DNA of 22,965 nucleotides from a virus, in the IMG/VR virus record IMGVR_UViG_3300028372_000049, positions 1 through 22,965 of that record; one strand, written 5' to 3'. Under the pieces are notes generated by a model. The model made no database searches. It was given only the letters and a program-made list of their open reading frames with translations, and had not been told where the DNA came from. A program made the position numbers and the translations under genes. Position 1 is the stretch's first letter. Each line of letters starts with the position of its first letter. Shown piece by piece: positions 1,884-14,477 of the stretch.

Positions 1884-4325
1884 TCAGCCCTTCTGTTGAA
1901 TGCCCTTGAAGATTGAGTCGGCCCTGGGCTGCTCGCCGTCGATGATGCGCTCACTGGGGGTGTTGATTTTAGCCTCCAGCTCGCTTCGGTCGGCGAGGTT
2001 GAAGTGGTCGGCCGCGTAGAAGATGGCGTCCAGGTCGATGATGTAGCACGTCGGGCGCTTGTCATTGACCCTGGGGCGCTTGGTGCCTGCTGGGCTGATG
2101 GAGTCGAGCGCGTTTGAGAGCTGGGACTGAGTGGGCACCTTGAAGCTGTTGGTGAGCGTCTTCCACTTGTTGTGCAGGGTCTTCATGTGAACCAGGAACT
2201 CGCCGTCGCCGTAAGGCATCATGTCTGAGCGCGTGCCGCTGTCGATGTAGCTGACCAGTGCAATGAGCAGCTCCTGGTTGATACCCGTCTTGAAGTTGAA
2301 GGTCCTGATGAGTTCGCTGTCCCACCCCTCCACAAGGAACCTATCACCGGCCGTGACCTGACGGTTCTCAGCCAGCCACATGATGTGACGGGCGATGCCG
2401 CCACCGTCGACCCAGGCTTCTGTGTGGGCGCGGCCGCCAAGGCTCTCCAGGTAGGCGGCTGCCTTGGCGTCGGTCTTGATGTAGCCAATACGGCGCTTGA
2501 TGGCCTCTCTATCGTTCTCGGTGAGGTCCTCGCGCATCTTCAGGGCGTCGTCGTTGTTGGCCGTGATGAGCAGGCGGGGAGCACCAATGAGTGTGGCGTG
2601 AGGCTTGTACTTGCGGTTCAAGGACATCTGCGTGGTGCCAATGATACGCCGGAAGATGGAGCTGGCGTTGTCGCCGTAGAAGCCTGTGGGGATGGCCTCG
2701 TCGGCGAGAATCAGGGGGCAGTTGGCGATCTCCTCCTGGAAGCTCTCAGTAAGCGCAGAGTAGGGCGTGGGCGCTCGACCGTGCATACCTACGGCGATGC
2801 CTTCGGCGAGCATACCCTTGCCGATTGAGGGAGGGCCGTGCAGGTACAGGGCGCACACAGGGTCACCAAACCGAGGATAGACGGCCAGCCAGTCGAGCAG
2901 CTCGTCAGCCTTGGGGCCGCCGATGAGCCGCAGCCACTGGTCAATTTCAGGGTCATGCTCGGGCACCACGTCGGCCTGGATGCTGCCGACCCCCTCCAAC
3001 ATGGCCTGGCTGGACGGCTCGTAGTAGTTGCCCTCCTGGCCCATAACGAGCTGGACCTCGTGGACCGGCGTGCCGATGGCGTCGAGGAGGTTCTTGGTCT
3101 GGTGCAGGTTGCCCTTCTCGTTGACGTGGCGGCCGTCGGCCAGTGTCGGGCAGAGGTTGTTGATGGCCCACAGCAGTCCATCAGACTTGTACGGGGGCGT
3201 GTAGCTGGAGCTGCTTTCGTCCCAGACGTAGAAGTGGTTGGAGCTGGCGACGAAGGCAACCAGCGCGTGGGCGGCCTCTTGAGCGGGCATGTTGAGGGTG
3301 TCGGCCATCTCGTCGGCCACAAGCTTCTGGTCTTCTCCGAGCGGCATCCTGAATCCGGCCTGCTTGGCCTTGAAGGCGAGCGTGCGCAGGGTCACTGGCT
3401 TGCCGTAACGGGTGCCCGAGAAGCTGTCCCACTTGGTCCTGCAAGTGTCTGTGCCCTCGTACTTGGTGCCGGTGGAGCTCCACTGGTCCCACAGGTAGAA
3501 GGCGTCGTCGCCCCACTCATGCTTGAGGGCCATGCCCACGCGCACCCACTCCTCGTAGGTGATGTCGGCGTCGATGGCCGCGAGGGCATCTTCAACCCAG
3601 GGGTGGCTAGCAGGCCCGTACCCCCAGTGGTCTCCCTCCCCAGTGGACCCGTCTGAGGTCGGCATAGGTGATGAGGACATCTTGGCGAGGGCGTCGTCCA
3701 GCTCATCAGGTGCCCACGTCAGGGGCCGCATGGATGTGAACTCGCTGACTTCGGCCGTTGAGCGGTAGGCCCCATCGTCGGACTCGCGGCGCACGTTGGG
3801 CAGCCGGAACATCCTGGTCCAGTCTTTGCACTGCTCGTCGGCTGGGATGCCCAGGTCGCGCACATGTGCGATGAACTGGCTCAGGTAGCTGTCAGCGAGT
3901 CGTGCCGGAATGGGCACTTCCAGCGGCCATATAGCTCTCCAGCCGTGCTGGCTGAAATAGATGCCCGCCTGCTGGAGTAGGGGCTGAGTGCGGACCGTCT
4001 CGGCGAACTCGGCACGGTCGGCGTCAGTCCATTCACGATGCCCGGGGAGGTCGACGTCGATGGCGGCGTAGTTGAGCTGAGGCTCATAGCCGTCGCCCTG
4101 CTCTACCAGTGGTACCAGGGCATCCTTCTTGACCCTCAGGCCCTTGTCGGCTGCCTCGCTCAGGGCCGGGACGGTGTAGCAGACGAAGTGAGCGTCGGAC
4201 TGGTGGGCGTCCTCCATCGCGTGCATGAAGTCGGAGAGCGGCTGCATCTTGACGTCTTGCTGGTTTGAGCCGTTGAAGGCTGGGAAATACTTGTCGGGGA
4301 ATGCCAGTAGCTTTGGCAGCTCCAT
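1884..4325 (-). CDS. primase-helicase (AEP-type primase plus SF3/D5-like helicase)
   Basis: Probable bifunctional replication enzyme of 813 residues that makes primers and unwinds the fork. The N-terminal part matches archaeo-eukaryotic primase logic: IDVD (D90, D92) for metal binding, SQHG (125-128) and RMFRLPN (171-177). A middle segment with YEEWVRVGMALKHEWG resembles PriCT_2-type primase C-terminal domains. The helicase part has Walker A GPPSIGKG (497-504), Walker B LILADE (538-543) and a sensor-like LLITANND. This start is preferred because GAGG lies 5 nt upstream and the leader from the predicted promoter (about 43 nt) matches that of the nuclease gene. The alternative ATG at 4352 adds 9 residues. 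It is transcribed away from the repeat-rich region, as expected for a replication gene beside an origin. Confidence 0.9.
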   Translation of the reverse strand: MELPKLLAFPDKYFPAFNGSNQQDVKMQPLSDFMHAMEDAHQSDAHFVCYTVPALSEAADKGLRVKKDALVPLVEQGDGYEPQLNYAAIDVDLPGHREWTDADRAEFAETVRTQPLLQQAGIYFSQHGWRAIWPLEVPIPARLADSYLSQFIAHVRDLGIPADEQCKDWTRMFRLPNVRRESDDGAYRSTAEVSEFTSMRPLTWAPDELDDALAKMSSSPMPTSDGSTGEGDHWGYGPASHPWVEDALAAIDADITYEEWVRVGMALKHEWGDDAFYLWDQWSSTGTKYEGTDTCRTKWDSFSGTRYGKPVTLRTLAFKAKQAGFRMPLGEDQKLVADEMADTLNMPAQEAAHALVAFVASSNHFYVWDESSSSYTPPYKSDGLLWAINNLCPTLADGRHVNEKGNLHQTKNLLDAIGTPVHEVQLVMGQEGNYYEPSSQAMLEGVGSIQADVVPEHDPEIDQWLRLIGGPKADELLDWLAVYPRFGDPVCALYLHGPPSIGKGMLAEGIAVGMHGRAPTPYSALTESFQEEIANCPLILADEAIPTGFYGDNASSIFRRIIGTTQMSLNRKYKPHATLIGAPRLLITANNDDALKMREDLTENDREAIKRRIGYIKTDAKAAAYLESLGGRAHTEAWVDGGGIARHIMWLAENRQVTAGDRFLVEGWDSELIRTFNFKTGINQELLIALVSYIDSGTRSDMMPYGDGEFLVHMKTLHNKWKTLTNSFKVPTQSQLSNALDSISPAGTKRPRVNDKRPTCYIIDLDAIFYAADHFNLADRSELEAKINTPSERIIDGEQPRADSIFKGIQQKG

Positions 4326-4375
4326 GTTTACCTCATCTGTGAGTACGGCCATGTGGCCTCAGTGGTCCACGGTGA

Positions 4376-4404
4376 ACTGTAGCAGAAGAACTAGCAGCAC
4401 GCAA
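4376..4404 (-). promoter_or_regulatory. sigma-70-like promoter for the primase-helicase
   Basis: Minus strand: TTGCGT (4404-4399), 17-bp spacer, TACAGT (4381-4376). The -10 hexamer and following bases (CTACAGT then C, CC, TGGA) resemble the nuclease promoter at 1848-1876. The closest GAATGTCCC copy (4428-4436) is about 24 bp upstream of the -35, where an activator or repressor could act. Confidence 0.5.
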
Positions 4405-4414
4405 ATGATATTCC

Positions 4415-4801
4415 GAGGTTTCTGAGTGAATGTCCCAGATGTCCCTTGGTACATTCGTGAATGTCCCACCCCATCGGGGTCTGGAGGGGTCCACAGGGCG
4501 ATTTGTGCGTCCTAAGGCAATTGGGTCGGTACAAGTGCTCAAGTTTACCGCTGAAAACCTTGAAACCTTGTGAGGCATTTGCACACGTGAGACGGGCATT
4601 GCCACACACCTCAGAGGTTTCTGAGTGAATGTCCCAGATGTCCCTTGGTACATTCGTGAATGTCCCACCCCATCAGGGTCTGAGGGGGTCCGCAGGGCGA
4701 TTTGGGTGTCCTAAGGCAATTGGGTCGGTACAAGTGCTCAAGTTTACCGCTGAAAACCTTGAAACCTTGTAAGGCAATTCCACGCGTGAGAGGGCATTGC
4801 C
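4415..4801. repeat. tandem duplication, two copies with about 199-bp period
   Basis: Copy 1 (about 4415-4603) and copy 2 (about 4614-4801) share the same order: GAGGTTTCTGAGTGAATG, the GAATGTCCC palindrome, a GGGGTCC stretch, GGGCGATTTG, CCTAAGGCAATTGGGTCGG, CAAGTTTACCGC and GGCATTGCC. Only scattered substitutions and small indels separate them. A partial third copy of the first half starts near 4917 and merges into the module ending at 5314. Confidence 0.85.
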
Positions 4802-4932
4802 TTAGAGCGTCCTGTGGCAATTCCACGCGTGAGAAGGGCATTGCCTTAGAGCGTCCTGTGGCAATTCCACACGAGCCGGGTATTGCCTTAGAGCGTCCTG
4901 TGGCAATTCCACACGCCTCAGAGCGTCTGAGT
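4773..4932. repeat. four tandem 42-44 bp repeats (GGCAATTCC family)
   Basis: Units start at 4773, 4816, 4860 and 4902 (periods 43, 44 and 42). Each begins GGCAATTCCAC, most then have CGTGAG and GGGCATTGCC, and end TTAGAGCGTCCTGT; the last is truncated. GGCAAT and ATTGCC are inverted arms inside the units, and CACGCGTG is itself palindromic. Related single copies occur near 4574 and in the CCTAAGGCAATTGGG segments of both 199-bp repeats. Head-to-tail repeats of this size fit replication iterons or a partition site. Confidence 0.8.
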
Positions 4933-5123
4933 GAATGTCCCAGTGGTCCATGTAAATGTCCCAAGCGAGGGGGTGAATGTCCCAGAAGGTGTCTTGGTAC
5001 ATTCACGAATGTCCCACCCCATCAGGGCCTGAAGGGGTCCAAACGCCGATTTAGGGGGTCTTGGGACATTCACTTCTAATATCCTCTACCCTTTATAGAG
5101 TAAACCTTAGGTTTCGTATATAG

Positions 5124-5150
5124 ACGTGTGTGTATATGTGTGTGTATGTA
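5124..5150. other. 27-nt alternating purine-pyrimidine tract
   Basis: From ACGTGTGTG to TATGTA every base alternates purine and pyrimidine, mostly TG with some TA. Such tracts melt easily and can adopt Z-DNA under negative supercoiling. It is absent from the second module copy, so it is specific to the region beside the primase-helicase and could serve as an unwinding element. Confidence 0.6.
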
Positions 5151-5166
5151 GGTTTAAGGTTTTAAG

Positions 5167-5207
5167 TAGTAAACAATTACGCGAGGCCCCCCCACGGTAT
5201 GTACCAC
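5167..5207. repeat. 41-bp block identical to 14310-14350 (copy A)
   Basis: Runs from TAGTAAACAATTACGCG through a run of seven C to GGTATGTACCAC. All 41 bases match the other copy, while flanking sequence has diverged. The last part, GTATGTACC, is one base from the GAATGTACC motif. Confidence 0.9.
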
Positions 5208-5393
5208 TAGAATGAAAATCGCGGTCAGAAGGGCGTCAGGGGCCGATTTTAGTGAATGTCCCAGGGCCCAATTCACTGTCCCTGGTACATTCGTGGGACA
5301 TTCGTGGGACATTCTGGGTCATTTTGGGCCACAGGGCCGATATCCTGTCGATGCACTGCGTGGAGTGGTGGAGCTGTGGAGAGCGGCCGCCCT

Positions 5394-5437
5394 TATACTA
5401 AGAAATTAGTTGCGCCAAGCTCCATAGCTGTTATACT
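5394..5437 (+). promoter_or_regulatory. plus-strand promoter(s) for the regulator/terminase operon
   Basis: TTGCGC (5410-5415), a 16-bp spacer and TATACT (5432-5437) form a sigma-70-like promoter with a predicted start near 5444, about 20 nt before ATG 5465. A second TATACT at 5394-5399 has no clear -35 and may be another start. SD GAGG follows about 6 nt before the ATG. Confidence 0.5.
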
Positions 5438-5464
5438 TGAATCAGCGACTCAGAGAGGTAACCA

Positions 5465-5965
5465 ATGAAGGACACACAAGAGCAGACCCGAGAAGTAGTC
5501 GAGCCGTCCGAGACCGACAAGGAGCGGCGCGACCGCCTCAGGGCCAGACGGCTGTTATTCTTCGACCGCCCGGACTTCGAGAATATTGAGCAGTTCGCTG
5601 AGTTCGTCAGGCACTGCCGCGCCTCCTACGAGGACGGCCCGAGCATGGGCAGCACGACTCAAGCCTGTATTGAGATGGCGTTCGACGAGGACAGGTATGG
5701 TGTGGGCATCAGGACCTATCCCCAGGTCAAGCCCGTTGAGCCAGAGCCTCCCCTCCACCTGACCCACGACCACCTACTCCGGCTCGCTACGCGCAACGTC
5801 AGGCACCTGGGCACCTGGGTCGCTATTGACGTGGAGGGGCAGACCACCCGAGACAGGGCCGAAGCTCAGGGCCTGGGGAAATCTACCGTCCACGGACGTC
5901 TGACCAAGGCGCGTACGGCAATCATGGAGAAGCTCGCACGGGGAGGCCACGATGCTGCGAATTGA
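5465..5965 (+). CDS. sigma-70 region-4-like HTH regulator
   Basis: A protein of 166 residues, the first plus-strand gene after the control region. Residues from about 114 to 155 (LGTWVAIDVEG, then TTRDRAEAQGLGKSTVHGRL and TKARTAIMEKL) match the helix-turn-helix of sigma-70 region 4 and ArpU/RinA-like phage late regulators; GLGKSTVHGRL would be the recognition helix. The N-terminal half is charged and not recognised. Phage proteins of this type usually activate late or packaging genes, and its place just before the terminase operon fits. It is a reasonable candidate for the protein that reads the GAATGTCCC motifs, but nothing in the sequence proves that. GAGG precedes the ATG, and the 3' end overlaps the next gene by 14 bp. 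Confidence 0.75.
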   Translation: MKDTQEQTREVVEPSETDKERRDRLRARRLLFFDRPDFENIEQFAEFVRHCRASYEDGPSMGSTTQACIEMAFDEDRYGVGIRTYPQVKPVEPEPPLHLTHDHLLRLATRNVRHLGTWVAIDVEGQTTRDRAEAQGLGKSTVHGRLTKARTAIMEKLARGGHDAAN

Positions 5966-6932: not shown

Positions 6933-7113
6933 AAATTAGGCCGGACATCTACCGGCCATTATTCGCCATGTATAAGTAGAGGGCGCGCTAGAGAGTGCCC
7001 AGGTGACAGCGGGCATTCACGCTTCACGCCCTCCACACTTCACTTCACCCACCAAGACACCCTCGTCAGCGTCTACCAGCTGCCGGGGGTGTTCTATTTC
7101 CCATGAGGCCGCC
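6933..7113 (+). promoter_or_regulatory. spacer before terminase genes, with a hairpin
   Basis: A 181-bp spacer. GGCCGG (6939-6944) and CCGGCC (6952-6957) form a 6-bp stem with a 7-nt loop, followed by ATTATT, a weak terminator-like or processing hairpin. TATAAG at 6971-6976 could be a -10, but no good -35 precedes it. The rest is C-rich leader with SD GAGG before ATG 7114. A GTG at 7003 is in frame with the terminase, but the extension is low-complexity and lacks an SD. Confidence 0.4.
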
Positions 7114-7623
7114 ATGCCCCAAAGCGCGAAACAACAGGCCGCAGAGCTGGCCCGCGAGGGGCGGCGCTTGAAGGCCATGGAACTCAAGCTCGAAGGCAAG
7201 ACCTTCCGGCACATCGCCGACCAGCTAGGCGTCAGTGTGGGCACAGCTCACGGCGACGTCCAAGCGTGCCTGTTGGAGCTGGTGGAGATGCGCCAAGACA
7301 CTACTGAGGAGTACGTAGAGCTGGAGACCGAGCGGCTCGAAGCTGACCGCGATGACCTCAACAGCCTGCTTGGTGCCCTGGCCCCTAACATCTCTCAGGG
7401 CTGCCACGACGCCATCGACAAGGCCATCAAGATTATCAACCAGCGGGTCAAGGTGTCTGAGAGCATTCGCAAGCTCAGGGGCCTGGACGCTCCCCAGCGC
7501 AATCAGCACACCGTCGTGACCGTATCCCCTGCGGACGCAGCCGAAGAAATCAACGACGCCTTCGGCCTTGACGTGGTGGAGGTTGTGGAGGTCGACGATG
7601 AGCAGGAAGACGCCACAGACTAA
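7114..7623 (+). CDS. terS: terminase small subunit
   Basis: A protein of 169 residues just before and overlapping the large subunit. Residues 29-49 (GKTFRHIADQLGVSVGTAHGD) form a clear helix-turn-helix, the usual DNA-recognition part of small terminases. A long charged helical segment follows and an acidic C-terminal tail (residues about 140-169) that would contact the large subunit. It recognises the packaging start site and stimulates the motor. ATG 7114 is chosen for the GAGG upstream. Confidence 0.8.
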   Translation: MPQSAKQQAAELAREGRRLKAMELKLEGKTFRHIADQLGVSVGTAHGDVQACLLELVEMRQDTTEEYVELETERLEADRDDLNSLLGALAPNISQGCHDAIDKAIKIINQRVKVSESIRKLRGLDAPQRNQHTVVTVSPADAAEEINDAFGLDVVEVVEVDDEQEDATD

Positions 7624-8971
7624 AGCCTCCATGGCCCAGTTCTGGCGGCCGTACCAGAAACGGTACATCTGCGACCAGGGCCGCCTTCAACTGTACTGCA
7701 AGAGCCGTCAGATCGGCATCTCTGAGGCCAGCAGCTTCAAGGGCGCACGAGAGGCCGCGACCAACAGACGCCGGGACGTGTACTTCGTCTCGACGAACTT
7801 CGCCAACGCCAAGGACCTCATCAGAAAGGCGAAGTGGTGGTTGCAGGTCATGGCGAAAATCCGGCCGAATCTGGCCCCTTCGCTCGCACTGGTCACGGAG
7901 AACGTGTCCATGCTGGAGCTGGCCAACGGCTCGCGGCTCATTGCGCTGCCCTGCAAGCCCGGGTCGGTACGGGGCAAGAGCGGCACCATCATCCTCGACG
8001 AGGCCGCGCACTATGAGAATGACATGGAGATGTACGCCGCTATTGCACCGGCCATCATCTCCCAGCCGGACCTCAGACTCATCCTGGTCTCCACGCCCTT
8101 CGGCCCTAACGGACTGTTCTACAAGGCGTGGACTGGCGAGCTGGGAGACGAGACAGACGAGATGCACCGTGCCGGACTGGCATGGAGTAGGCACGAAACG
8201 GACGTGTTTGGAGCGGTCGCTGACGGCTTCCCCGAAGAAGTGCTCTTGCTGGAGGACCAGTACCCTTCGGACATCTGGGCACAAGAGTTCCTGTGCCAGT
8301 TCATCTCGGACAGCACGCTGTACTTCAAGCACGCCCTGTTGAAGAAGGCGATGGCTGATGTGAGCGAGCCGGACACTCGCGACGCCAAGCGCGTCCTGGG
8401 CATCGACCTCGCCTCAGAGACCGACAAGAGCGTCTGGGTCGACATGGTCAAGGTCGGCGACAGCTACCACGTCCTGGACACTGGCGACATGTCAGCAGAC
8501 GACCGAGACAAGCCGCTGACGTACCCTGAGCAGTACGACGTACTGACCAAGAAAATCGCCAATACCGACTACTATCAGGTGGCCGTCGACGCGACCGGAG
8601 AGGGCAAGGGCCTGAGCCAGTGGCTGCAACGAGACTTTGGCTCAGGCAGAGTGGTGGGCGTCCACTTCACCAACCAGTGGAAGGCCAAGTACATCCCTCA
8701 GCTTAAGCTGGATATGGCGCGGTCGCGATTCCACATGCCCAATCACTCCAAGCTCAGGGCAGATTTCCAGAAAATCAAGCGCAAAGTGACCACAGCCAAC
8801 AACGAAATCTTCGCCGCTAGCAGGGACGCTGACGGCCACGCAGACGGCTTCTTCGCTGCGCTGCTGGGCTACTCCATGCTGTACCGGCCGCCAAAACCCA
8901 AGAGTAAGCCAAGGGCCAAGGCCCACAAGCCCAGCAATGCCTCGCTAGCCAAGAAGTACATGGGCTACTGA
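7598..8971 (+). CDS. terL: terminase large subunit (packaging ATPase/nuclease)
   Basis: A protein of 457 residues that pumps DNA into the prohead and cuts it. The ATPase P-loop is KSRQIGIS (35-42): the lysine comes before SRQ rather than after the last glycine, a deviant Walker A like that of lambda gpA. Walker B is ILDE (132-135), with a coupling-like VSTPFG segment. The RNase H-fold nuclease acids are likely D270 (GIDLAS), D331 (AVDATG) and D416 (HADGFFAAL). The overall pattern resembles Mu gp28/Terminase_6. ATG 7598 has GGAGG 7-8 nt upstream and overlaps terS by 26 bp. The C-terminus is Lys/Pro-rich and probably disordered. Confidence 0.92.
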   Translation: MSRKTPQTKASMAQFWRPYQKRYICDQGRLQLYCKSRQIGISEASSFKGAREAATNRRRDVYFVSTNFANAKDLIRKAKWWLQVMAKIRPNLAPSLALVTENVSMLELANGSRLIALPCKPGSVRGKSGTIILDEAAHYENDMEMYAAIAPAIISQPDLRLILVSTPFGPNGLFYKAWTGELGDETDEMHRAGLAWSRHETDVFGAVADGFPEEVLLLEDQYPSDIWAQEFLCQFISDSTLYFKHALLKKAMADVSEPDTRDAKRVLGIDLASETDKSVWVDMVKVGDSYHVLDTGDMSADDRDKPLTYPEQYDVLTKKIANTDYYQVAVDATGEGKGLSQWLQRDFGSGRVVGVHFTNQWKAKYIPQLKLDMARSRFHMPNHSKLRADFQKIKRKVTTANNEIFAASRDADGHADGFFAALLGYSMLYRPPKPKSKPRAKAHKPSNASLAKKYMGY

Positions 8972-13172: not shown

Positions 13173-14123
13173 ATGAGCTTCGACGTTGGAACACTCAGCC
13201 CCGCACAGCGCGAGGAAATCGTCAAGGGCCAAGAGCCGGACCTGTCCGGCTACATGGCTCGCACGGTCGTACCCGAACCGGCCTTCCCCATCACCCGACG
13301 CGAGGGCGCTTACCGCAAACTCGGACAGAACCGCACCCACGCCAGCGATGGTGAGGGCCGCAGCACCAAACAGCGCCCCGGCAGCCCGACCCCCGAAGGC
13401 AACGGCGGCGTCGAGTCCCTGAGCTACGTGTGCGAGCACTACAAGTTCAAAGAGGGCATCGACGAGCTGACCGGGATGGAGCTGGAGACGGCCATTCCCA
13501 TCTACTCCCAGCTCGGCCTGGAAGCCACTCACGAAGTCCTCGCCGACTTCGAGCGGGACTTCATCGAGGTCGTCAAGGGCAACGGCACTGACGACAGCGA
13601 GGACAGCATCCTCACCATGACTCTCTCCAGTGGAGAGGAGTTCGACGACACGACTGGCAGCCCCATCACCCAGATTCAGAAGGCCCTTCGATCCATCGGC
13701 TCAGGTGCCCGAGCTGTCCTGGGCTTCGATGTCGCCTTTGCCCTGATGCGTCACCCTGACGTCATCGGAGCGACTGAGGGAGGGTCCAAATCGGACAACA
13801 CCATGGTCGCCCTCCAGTCGCTCCGGGGATTCTTCCAGTCGCGCTTCGGCGTCAGTCAGGTCTACGTCGGCACCCAGCCGATTCACGATGGTGCTGAGAA
13901 CTGGGACTTCCAGCGCTCCTACCTCCATGACGGTGCCTGCTACTTTGACGACGGCAAGAACCTTGAGCGTCCGACGTTCATGGACCTTCGCCTCGACGAC
14001 TACGAGGACCGCGACAAGGAGATGAAGTACGTCCGCGCTCGGTTCGACGCCGACATCGTGCGACGCTTCAAGGAGAACTCCATCGCGCTGAAAAACGTGC
14101 TGGCTAATCCTGGCGCTATCTAA
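13173..14123 (+). CDS. major capsid protein
   Basis: A protein of 316 residues, right size and place for a Mu gpT/HK97-fold major capsid protein. Features: an N-terminal arm, then a Gly/Ser/Thr-rich loop around 50-75 (possible E-loop), a segment SYVCEHYKFKEGIDELTGMELE, a central helix ARAVLGFDVAFALMRHPDVIG, and a C-terminal DLRLDDYEDRDKEMKYVRARFDADIVRRF typical of late structural capsid sequence. GGAG precedes the ATG. It would build the icosahedral shell around the scaffold. It is followed by a non-coding control module rather than directly by connector genes. Confidence 0.85.
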   Translation: MSFDVGTLSPAQREEIVKGQEPDLSGYMARTVVPEPAFPITRREGAYRKLGQNRTHASDGEGRSTKQRPGSPTPEGNGGVESLSYVCEHYKFKEGIDELTGMELETAIPIYSQLGLEATHEVLADFERDFIEVVKGNGTDDSEDSILTMTLSSGEEFDDTTGSPITQIQKALRSIGSGARAVLGFDVAFALMRHPDVIGATEGGSKSDNTMVALQSLRGFFQSRFGVSQVYVGTQPIHDGAENWDFQRSYLHDGACYFDDGKNLERPTFMDLRLDDYEDRDKEMKYVRARFDADIVRRFKENSIALKNVLANPGAI

Positions 14124-14183
14124 TCGAGAGCTGTGAGGGCCTAAGTGAATGTCCCGGGACACCCCTGGGACATTCGCGAATGT

Positions 14184-14199
14184 ACCACTAAATAGTGGT
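14184..14199. repeat. 16-bp palindrome beside a motif
   Basis: ACCACTA-AA-TAGTGGT: 7-bp arms and a 2-bp centre, overlapping the end of the GAATGTACC copy at 14178. No equivalent palindrome is at this place in copy A. Confidence 0.5.
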
Positions 14200-14309
14200 G
14201 CTGTGGCCCTCACGGCCCGATTATTGGCCCCTGGTACACTGGGACACCGTTTTCTGACCCTTTATGGACTAAACCTAACCTTAGGTATTACGCCTTATAA
14301 GGTTTGGGA

Positions 14310-14350
14310 TAGTAAACAATTACGCGAGGCCCCCCCACGGTATGTACCAC
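14310..14350. repeat. 41-bp block identical to 5167-5207 (copy B)
   Basis: Starts TAGTAAACAATTACGCG, includes seven C in a row and ends GGTATGTACCAC. It is the only long stretch in the two modules without a single difference, so it is probably under direct selection. Confidence 0.9.
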
Positions 14351-14477
14351 CAGCCTGAAAATCGGCGCGTGGAGGGGCCCAGAGGCCGATTTTAGAGAAT
14401 GTCCCACATCGAAGATCAGTGTCCCTGGTACATTCGTGGGACATTCAGGACCACCCACCCCCTCAAGAGGCAAGCCC

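Follow-up and report, generated by a model that had tools for sequence, protein, structure and literature searches.

To our knowledge, the replication origins of most phages are unknown. The origin of phage lambda lies inside gene O and combines iterons, an AT-rich segment and an adjacent initiator, and phage P4 has two separate binding regions with repeats, ori and crr. The P4 α protein unites origin recognition, primase and helicase functions in one polypeptide (Ziegelin et al. 1993, as cited in PMC8965321). The NrS-1 polymerase, an enzyme of the PrimPol type that also contains a helix-bundle domain and a helicase domain, starts synthesis at a short, 8-nt template word that occurs twice in its genome, on opposite strands, and that has been suggested to mark the origin (PMC7102993, PMC8718748).

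The 22,965-bp stretch of viral DNA analysed here (the window) displays the traits of an iteron origin, in itself an already known kind of element: short phased repeats of GAATGT(C/A)CC (15 sites in one array and six in another), an AT-rich segment, and a PriCT_2/DUF5906 gene only 76 bp away. It resembles P4 in having two binding regions and one candidate multifunction protein, but the word is different and the likeness is one of arrangement only. Unlike the lambda origin, which is intragenic, the array of the window lies between genes, and the window proteins include no recognised relative of lambda O; arrays inside initiator-like genes do occur in two of the other phages described below (L167 and L256). 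NrS-1 has two copies of its word and no phased array. The closest counterparts are Salicola phage CGphi29 (NC_020844) and Idiomarinaceae phage 1N2-2 (NC_025439), in which ATGTCCC and ATGTACC arrays, respectively, lie in mixed orientation beside a primase-helicase gene, as they do in the window; the arrays bear no origin annotation in these records. Both phages differ from the window in that the enzyme is a Toprim plus AAA_25 helicase rather than a PriCT_2 plus SF3-like protein, and in that the array is 3′ of the gene. Since these arrays directly follow the primase-helicase gene, they supersede the statement in the first-pass annotation that no named phage system has this motif.

We consider it likely that both arrays of the window act as replication-origin elements of the iteron type, served most plausibly by the adjacent primase-helicase, and that the second copy is auxiliary. 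As far as the literature searched shows, three things are new: the array is present in two copies in this phage, a single 7-bp word recurs across many unrelated phages, and this word is often located after genes for AAA_25 primase-helicases, a family whose members were described in 2022 as without known function (PMC8965321). A literature search for the word gave only chance occurrences among the matches listed, searches for TGTCCC or GGGACA together with phage origins gave lambda-type matches or none, and the word is absent from the papers on the RA3 plasmid and on BstA that were examined.

Helically phased sites flank an AT-rich segment

The first array (4428–5314) occupies most of a 1.1-kb, apparently non-coding region (4353–5464) between a leftward gene (1884–4352) and a rightward operon that begins at 5465. 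It contains 15 exact copies of GAATGT(C/A)CC, in both orientations, and a variant, AAATGTCCC, at 4954, just as the first-pass annotation had counted them. A first-order model predicts approximately 0.01 exact sites per 887 bp, and approximately 0.25 in the whole 22,965-bp window; the reversed pattern has zero matches in the 22,965-bp record. With the shorter word ATGTMCC, and an array defined as at least five sites of mixed orientation in 400 bp, the window has 11 sites in 4935–5312.

These sites are grouped into modules. The left module (4412–4595, plus strand) has sites at 4428(+), 4448(−) and 4459(+), together with a 7-bp ATGTCCC at 4439, and it recurs with 93% identity at 4611–4794 (plus strand; sites at 4627(+), 4647(−) and 4658(+)) as part of a 199-bp tandem duplication, so that six of the 15 exact sites represent three sites copied once. 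In the middle module (4931–5071), sites at 4933(+), 4954(+, the variant), 4975(+), 4996(−) and 5007(+) are separated by steps of 21, 21, 21 and 11 bp and are followed by one at 5063(−). The right module (5241–5314) comprises GGCCGATTTTAG and then sites at 5254(+), 5284(−), 5295(−) and 5306(−). The site starts listed earlier (4933, 4954, 4975, 4996 and 5007; 5284, 5295 and 5306) are thus correct to the base, as are the three near-perfect 20-bp palindromes, of the form GGTACATTC-NN-GAATGTCCC, at 4448–4467, 4647–4666 and 4996–5015. Centre-to-centre distances between sites follow a 10.5-bp period (mean cosine of 0.86, versus 0.12 in spacing-jittered controls; p ~0.0005). This phasing supports the earlier suggestion that a protein may bind the array co-operatively along one face of the DNA.

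The lowest-G+C 60-mers of the entire 22,965-bp window lie inside the two arrays, at 5061–5185 and at 14261; the former is a candidate DNA-unwinding element. A second word, GGCAAT/ATTGCC, is found in 10 copies within 4516–4902, partly on a 42–44-bp step; the corresponding 42–44-bp tandem repeats (4770–4914) are a feature of the first array, the word not being present in the second. An Rfam search of 4300–5500 returned zero matches.

A diverged second copy lies among late genes

Outside the first array, the first-pass annotation had noticed no more than scattered 8-of-9 matches, all within genes. This picture is incorrect: six exact GAATGT(C/A)CC sites form a second, intergenic array at 14147–14446, between the major capsid gene (13173–14123) and the next gene, both rightward. 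All exact sites of the window therefore fall in two clusters, each with both orientations. The second array is a diverged homologous copy of roughly 4975–5314 in which the layout of sites is kept. Its left module (14144–14187, plus strand) has sites at 14147(+), 14167(−) and 14178(+), in the same order and with the same steps (20 and 11 bp) as the modules whose first sites are at 4428 and 4627. Next comes an AT-rich centre (14255–14325), which ranks with the 60-mers of lowest G+C in the window, and then a right module (14384–14446) that again comprises GGCCGATTTTAG, now with sites at 14397(+), 14427(−) and 14438(−), spaced by 30 and 11 bp; the final 27 bp of this module are identical to 5277–5303.

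The two arrays also have in common an identical 41-bp block, TAGTAAACAATTACGCGAGGCCCCCCCACGGTATGTACCAC (5167–5207 and 14310–14350), which is unchanged in both while its surroundings have diverged. It contains ATGTACC and a minus-strand hairpin, CGTGGGGGGGCCTCGCG. We note that this block includes a run of seven C residues and that its hairpin is terminator-like.

Two copies with inverted end modules might be expected of a MITE (miniature transposon) whose ends were inserted twice. We consider this exceedingly improbable: no target-site duplication is seen in the sequence, the palindrome has no match in the viral collection nor the left-module layout in the genome collection, and the word occurs in unrelated phages amid other surroundings.

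The second array also bears on the proposal that the sites lie between divergent operons, which holds for the first array but not for the second, since the latter is located between two rightward late genes. An operator or stoperator array would be another explanation of the sites: a phage regulator that binds them co-operatively would control the two divergent operons as well as late transcription at 14 kb. One candidate is the 166-aa product of the first gene of the rightward operon (5465–5965, plus strand), which has a weak helix-turn-helix similar to sigma-70 region 4 and is a rival candidate for binding the array, and the helical phasing is also typical of co-operative operators. On the other hand, neither array holds a sigma-70-like promoter (shuffled sequences yield about one or fewer), the second array is between co-directional genes, AT-rich centres are unnecessary for operators, and in other phages the arrays follow the ends of primase-helicase genes. 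Nor do two clusters with both orientations resemble L5-type stoperators, which are dispersed near many genes in one orientation relative to transcription. Overall, we regard a role as operator as unlikely.

The adjacent primase-helicase is a candidate initiator

The leftward gene beside the first array (1884–4352, minus strand) encodes an 822-aa protein, and its start codon is 76 bp from the first site. PriCT_2 and DUF5906 (SF3-like) domains are recognised in the protein, and it weakly matches the papillomavirus E1 helicase, from which we conclude that it is a primase with an SF3-like helicase. In its N-terminal part we read IDVDLPGH, FSQHGWRAIW and KDWTRMFRLP as putative archaeo-eukaryotic primase motifs; a family match is absent. 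The gene adjoins one for a PD-(D/E)XK nuclease. Because it is next to the array, this primase-helicase is probably the initiator of the phage, by analogy with P4 α. Of the features of P4 α, the primase and helicase functions have counterparts in the PriCT_2 and SF3-like regions; for a putative C-terminal DNA-binding domain, a single-sequence structure prediction of the C-terminus gave an unusable pLDDT of 36. Comparison of the protein with solved structures gave no sequence match.

That the arrays are origin DNA, which protein binds them, and what the second copy does are matters that we infer from the following. In both copies, phased sites lie on either side of segments that are the most AT-rich in the window, and the 41-bp block is constant; furthermore, in other phages such arrays are associated with replication genes (see below). 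We hypothesize a process in which the initiator would bind the helically phased half-sites co-operatively, on either side of the AT-rich segment, and would wrap or bend the DNA; the AT-rich segment would then be opened by the initiator, and replicative helicase and primase loaded there. The 1884–4352 protein could combine origin recognition, priming and unwinding, like P4 α, and the second copy at 14.1 kb may be an auxiliary origin or an accessory initiator-binding region, comparable to the second region of P4. Several observations count against the origin reading. The second copy sits among late structural genes, and no primase-helicase or other replication gene is beside it. No AAA_25 helicase was recognised among the window proteins; the primase-helicase beside the first array is of another type, and the array is 5′ of that gene, whereas it is 3′ in phages with AAA_25 genes.

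A variant of the origin reading treats the word not as an iteron but as a primase recognition site, at which the PriCT_2 domain would read the single-stranded template and start synthesis. The window primase does have PriCT_2 and SF3-like domains, and there is a precedent in the need of the NrS-1 polymerase for an 8-nt template word (PMC7102993, PMC8718748). Yet a 10.5-bp period fits a protein on double-stranded DNA and not single-strand priming, and the same word is found in AAA_25 phages that have Toprim instead of PriCT_2. Priming sites are consequently disfavoured, primarily by the double-helix phasing, and we judge them quite unlikely.

Partition, a third role that had been put forward for the array alongside operator and replication initiator site, would make it the centromere-like site of a plasmid-like prophage. 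Phased 11-bp direct steps do resemble plasmid centromere arrays, but no partition gene was recognised among the window proteins scanned, and arrays elsewhere follow helicase genes; we therefore rate partition as highly improbable. Of those three roles, comparison with other phages clearly favours the initiator site.

Arrays of the same word occur in unrelated phages

Searches with the primase, the capsid and the core block found no close relatives. The only close relative found, through a terminase profile (terminase protein 99% identical), is a 4.1-kb contig (L013) that ends short of both arrays, and the distant relatives retrieved with the same profile are without an array of the word. Viral contigs (2.9 million) were scanned by motif, first for the word in pairs and triplets and then with a broader triplet pattern. 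Mixed-orientation ATGT(C/A)CC arrays are present in 29 independent groups besides the window, or about 27 without two groups that resemble coding repeats. The array-bearing phage groups span G+C contents of 0.30–0.72. Most groups use ATGTCCC only; ATGTCCC and ATGTACC are mixed in the window and in L165. Site spacing in the other groups has a 10.75-bp period, which is weaker than that of the window and yet significant.

One such array belongs to L165, an unrelated phage of 30% G+C with seven exact GAATGT(C/A)CC sites in approximately 170 bp of intergenic DNA. It lies among leftward genes that include those for a PriCT_1 protein and a PD-(D/E)XK nuclease, and it has in common with the window a companion stretch resembling GCCGATTTAGGGGGTCTT (p ~0.007 against shuffles, with the word masked). 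The arrays of L167 and L256 are inside genes with weak HTH_36 matches, both below the Pfam cut-off.

In three groups the array adjoins a gene for a terminase subunit: it is just upstream of a putative small-subunit gene in L164 and L263, and between the small- and large-subunit genes in L173. These arrays fall outside the origin explanation. They invite the proposal that the array is a pac or cos-type site to which the terminase small subunit (in the window, likely the 7003–7623 product) binds. This we consider very unlikely for the window, where the arrays are approximately 1.7 kb (the first) and 6.5 kb (the second) from the putative small-subunit gene and where two distant copies would mean two packaging starts; moreover, in about half of the groups it is an AAA_25 replication gene that the array accompanies. 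As a separate observation, the terminase large-subunit gene of L173 (2081–4324) is split by an intein (Pfam Intein_splicing match).

Several candidates were rejected as arrays. L192, L226 and L234 have the appearance of tandemly repeated coding sequence (L192 and L226 are counted in the 29), and L229 and L231 are single chance pairs. In L014 the candidate proved to be a CGAACG repeat within a gene (7329–8195) that encodes a helix-turn-helix-like C-terminal part, has many CGAACG words in its coding sequence, and is upstream of a Mu-like terminase. A genome scan for the 20-bp palindrome gave 65 stretches, mostly REP-like hairpins from gut Clostridia genomes and not arrays; the corresponding loci (L093–L157) have a dispersed palindrome around GGGACATTCACGAATGTCCC, often after GTAG, which has the look of a REP-type element and is unrelated to the phage array.

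Arrays frequently follow AAA_25 primase-helicase genes

An AAA_25 (RepA-like) helicase gene is within 500 bp of the array in 15 of the 29 groups, versus one of 101 array-negative loci fetched by the same scans, counts that may be biased in that the AAA_25 profile was built from array-positive proteins, although it also found groups outside the seed. Pfam confirmed AAA_25 in all 15 groups, several of the proteins being fused to Prim-Pol, Toprim or PriCT_2, and the array is usually at or just past the 3′ end of the gene. The AAA_25 helicase of one comparable array locus (L308) matches the structure of RepA from plasmid RSF1010 (1g8y), whereas the window lacks a recognised counterpart.

We also examined the sequence that follows the AAA_25 gene in 16 named phage and prophage records, a non-random set in that the second batch was chosen by similarity to array-associated helicases; seven of the 16 have an array there, with a commonest 7-mer at a density that no other 300-bp window of the locus reaches. 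The words are ATGTCCC in CGphi29, ATGTACC in 1N2-2, ATGAACC in XX1924, GTATAAA in CRP-831, GCGTGACA in both 16-3 and RHph_X2_25, and GGCTGGAA in CRP-406. The place of the array is thus kept while the word changes, as would be expected if each initiator has iterons of its own. By the same densest-7-mer test, the other nine of the 16 AAA_25 records have no array after the gene, and no comparable array was found in six other phages whose primases match the PriCT_2 region of the window protein; both results count against the origin reading.

Array-associated AAA_25 helicases share a predicted C-terminal winged helix, which is a DNA-binding fold (model pLDDT >90 over most of the domain); MecI and other winged-helix proteins are among its structural neighbours. 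The putative recognition helix differs between the related helicases of 1N2-2 and XX1924, and their words differ by one base. A winged-helix profile of the AAA_25 helicases shows no similarity to the 5465–5965 protein or to the C-terminus of the window primase, and the latter result is a further point against the origin reading.

It is possible, though in our estimate doubtful, that ATGT(C/A)CC is an origin-recognition code of many otherwise unrelated phages, with differing helicase types and G+C contents of 0.30–0.72. Its reader would then be either a set of related winged-helix domains, each fused to a helicase, or a conserved host protein, and the phage studied here would use the code twice, as a co-operating pair of origins. 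A word that predicts origin-like arrays from sequence, that stands after one type of gene and that gives way to other words in relatives opens phage origin recognition to direct tests; the cultivated phages CGphi29, 1N2-2 and Rhizobium phage 16-3 are at hand. Arrays based on such words would also help to locate origins in uncultured phages.

Four individual phages merit mention. Rhizobium phage 16-3 (L322), a named temperate phage, and RHph_X2_25 (L325) each have approximately 15 copies of CGTGACA (mostly as GCGTGACA) within about 400 bp after the primase-helicase gene, and that of 16-3 is an origin candidate. In Roseobacter phage CRP-831 (L321), GTATAAA occurs 10 times in both orientations at 4550–4700, past a RepA-type helicase gene. 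Finally, Vibrio phage pYD21-A (L330) has, by eye, a divergent, AT-rich and repeat-rich region with TTATGATCA words at 2776–3228, upstream of a PriCT_2-type primase.
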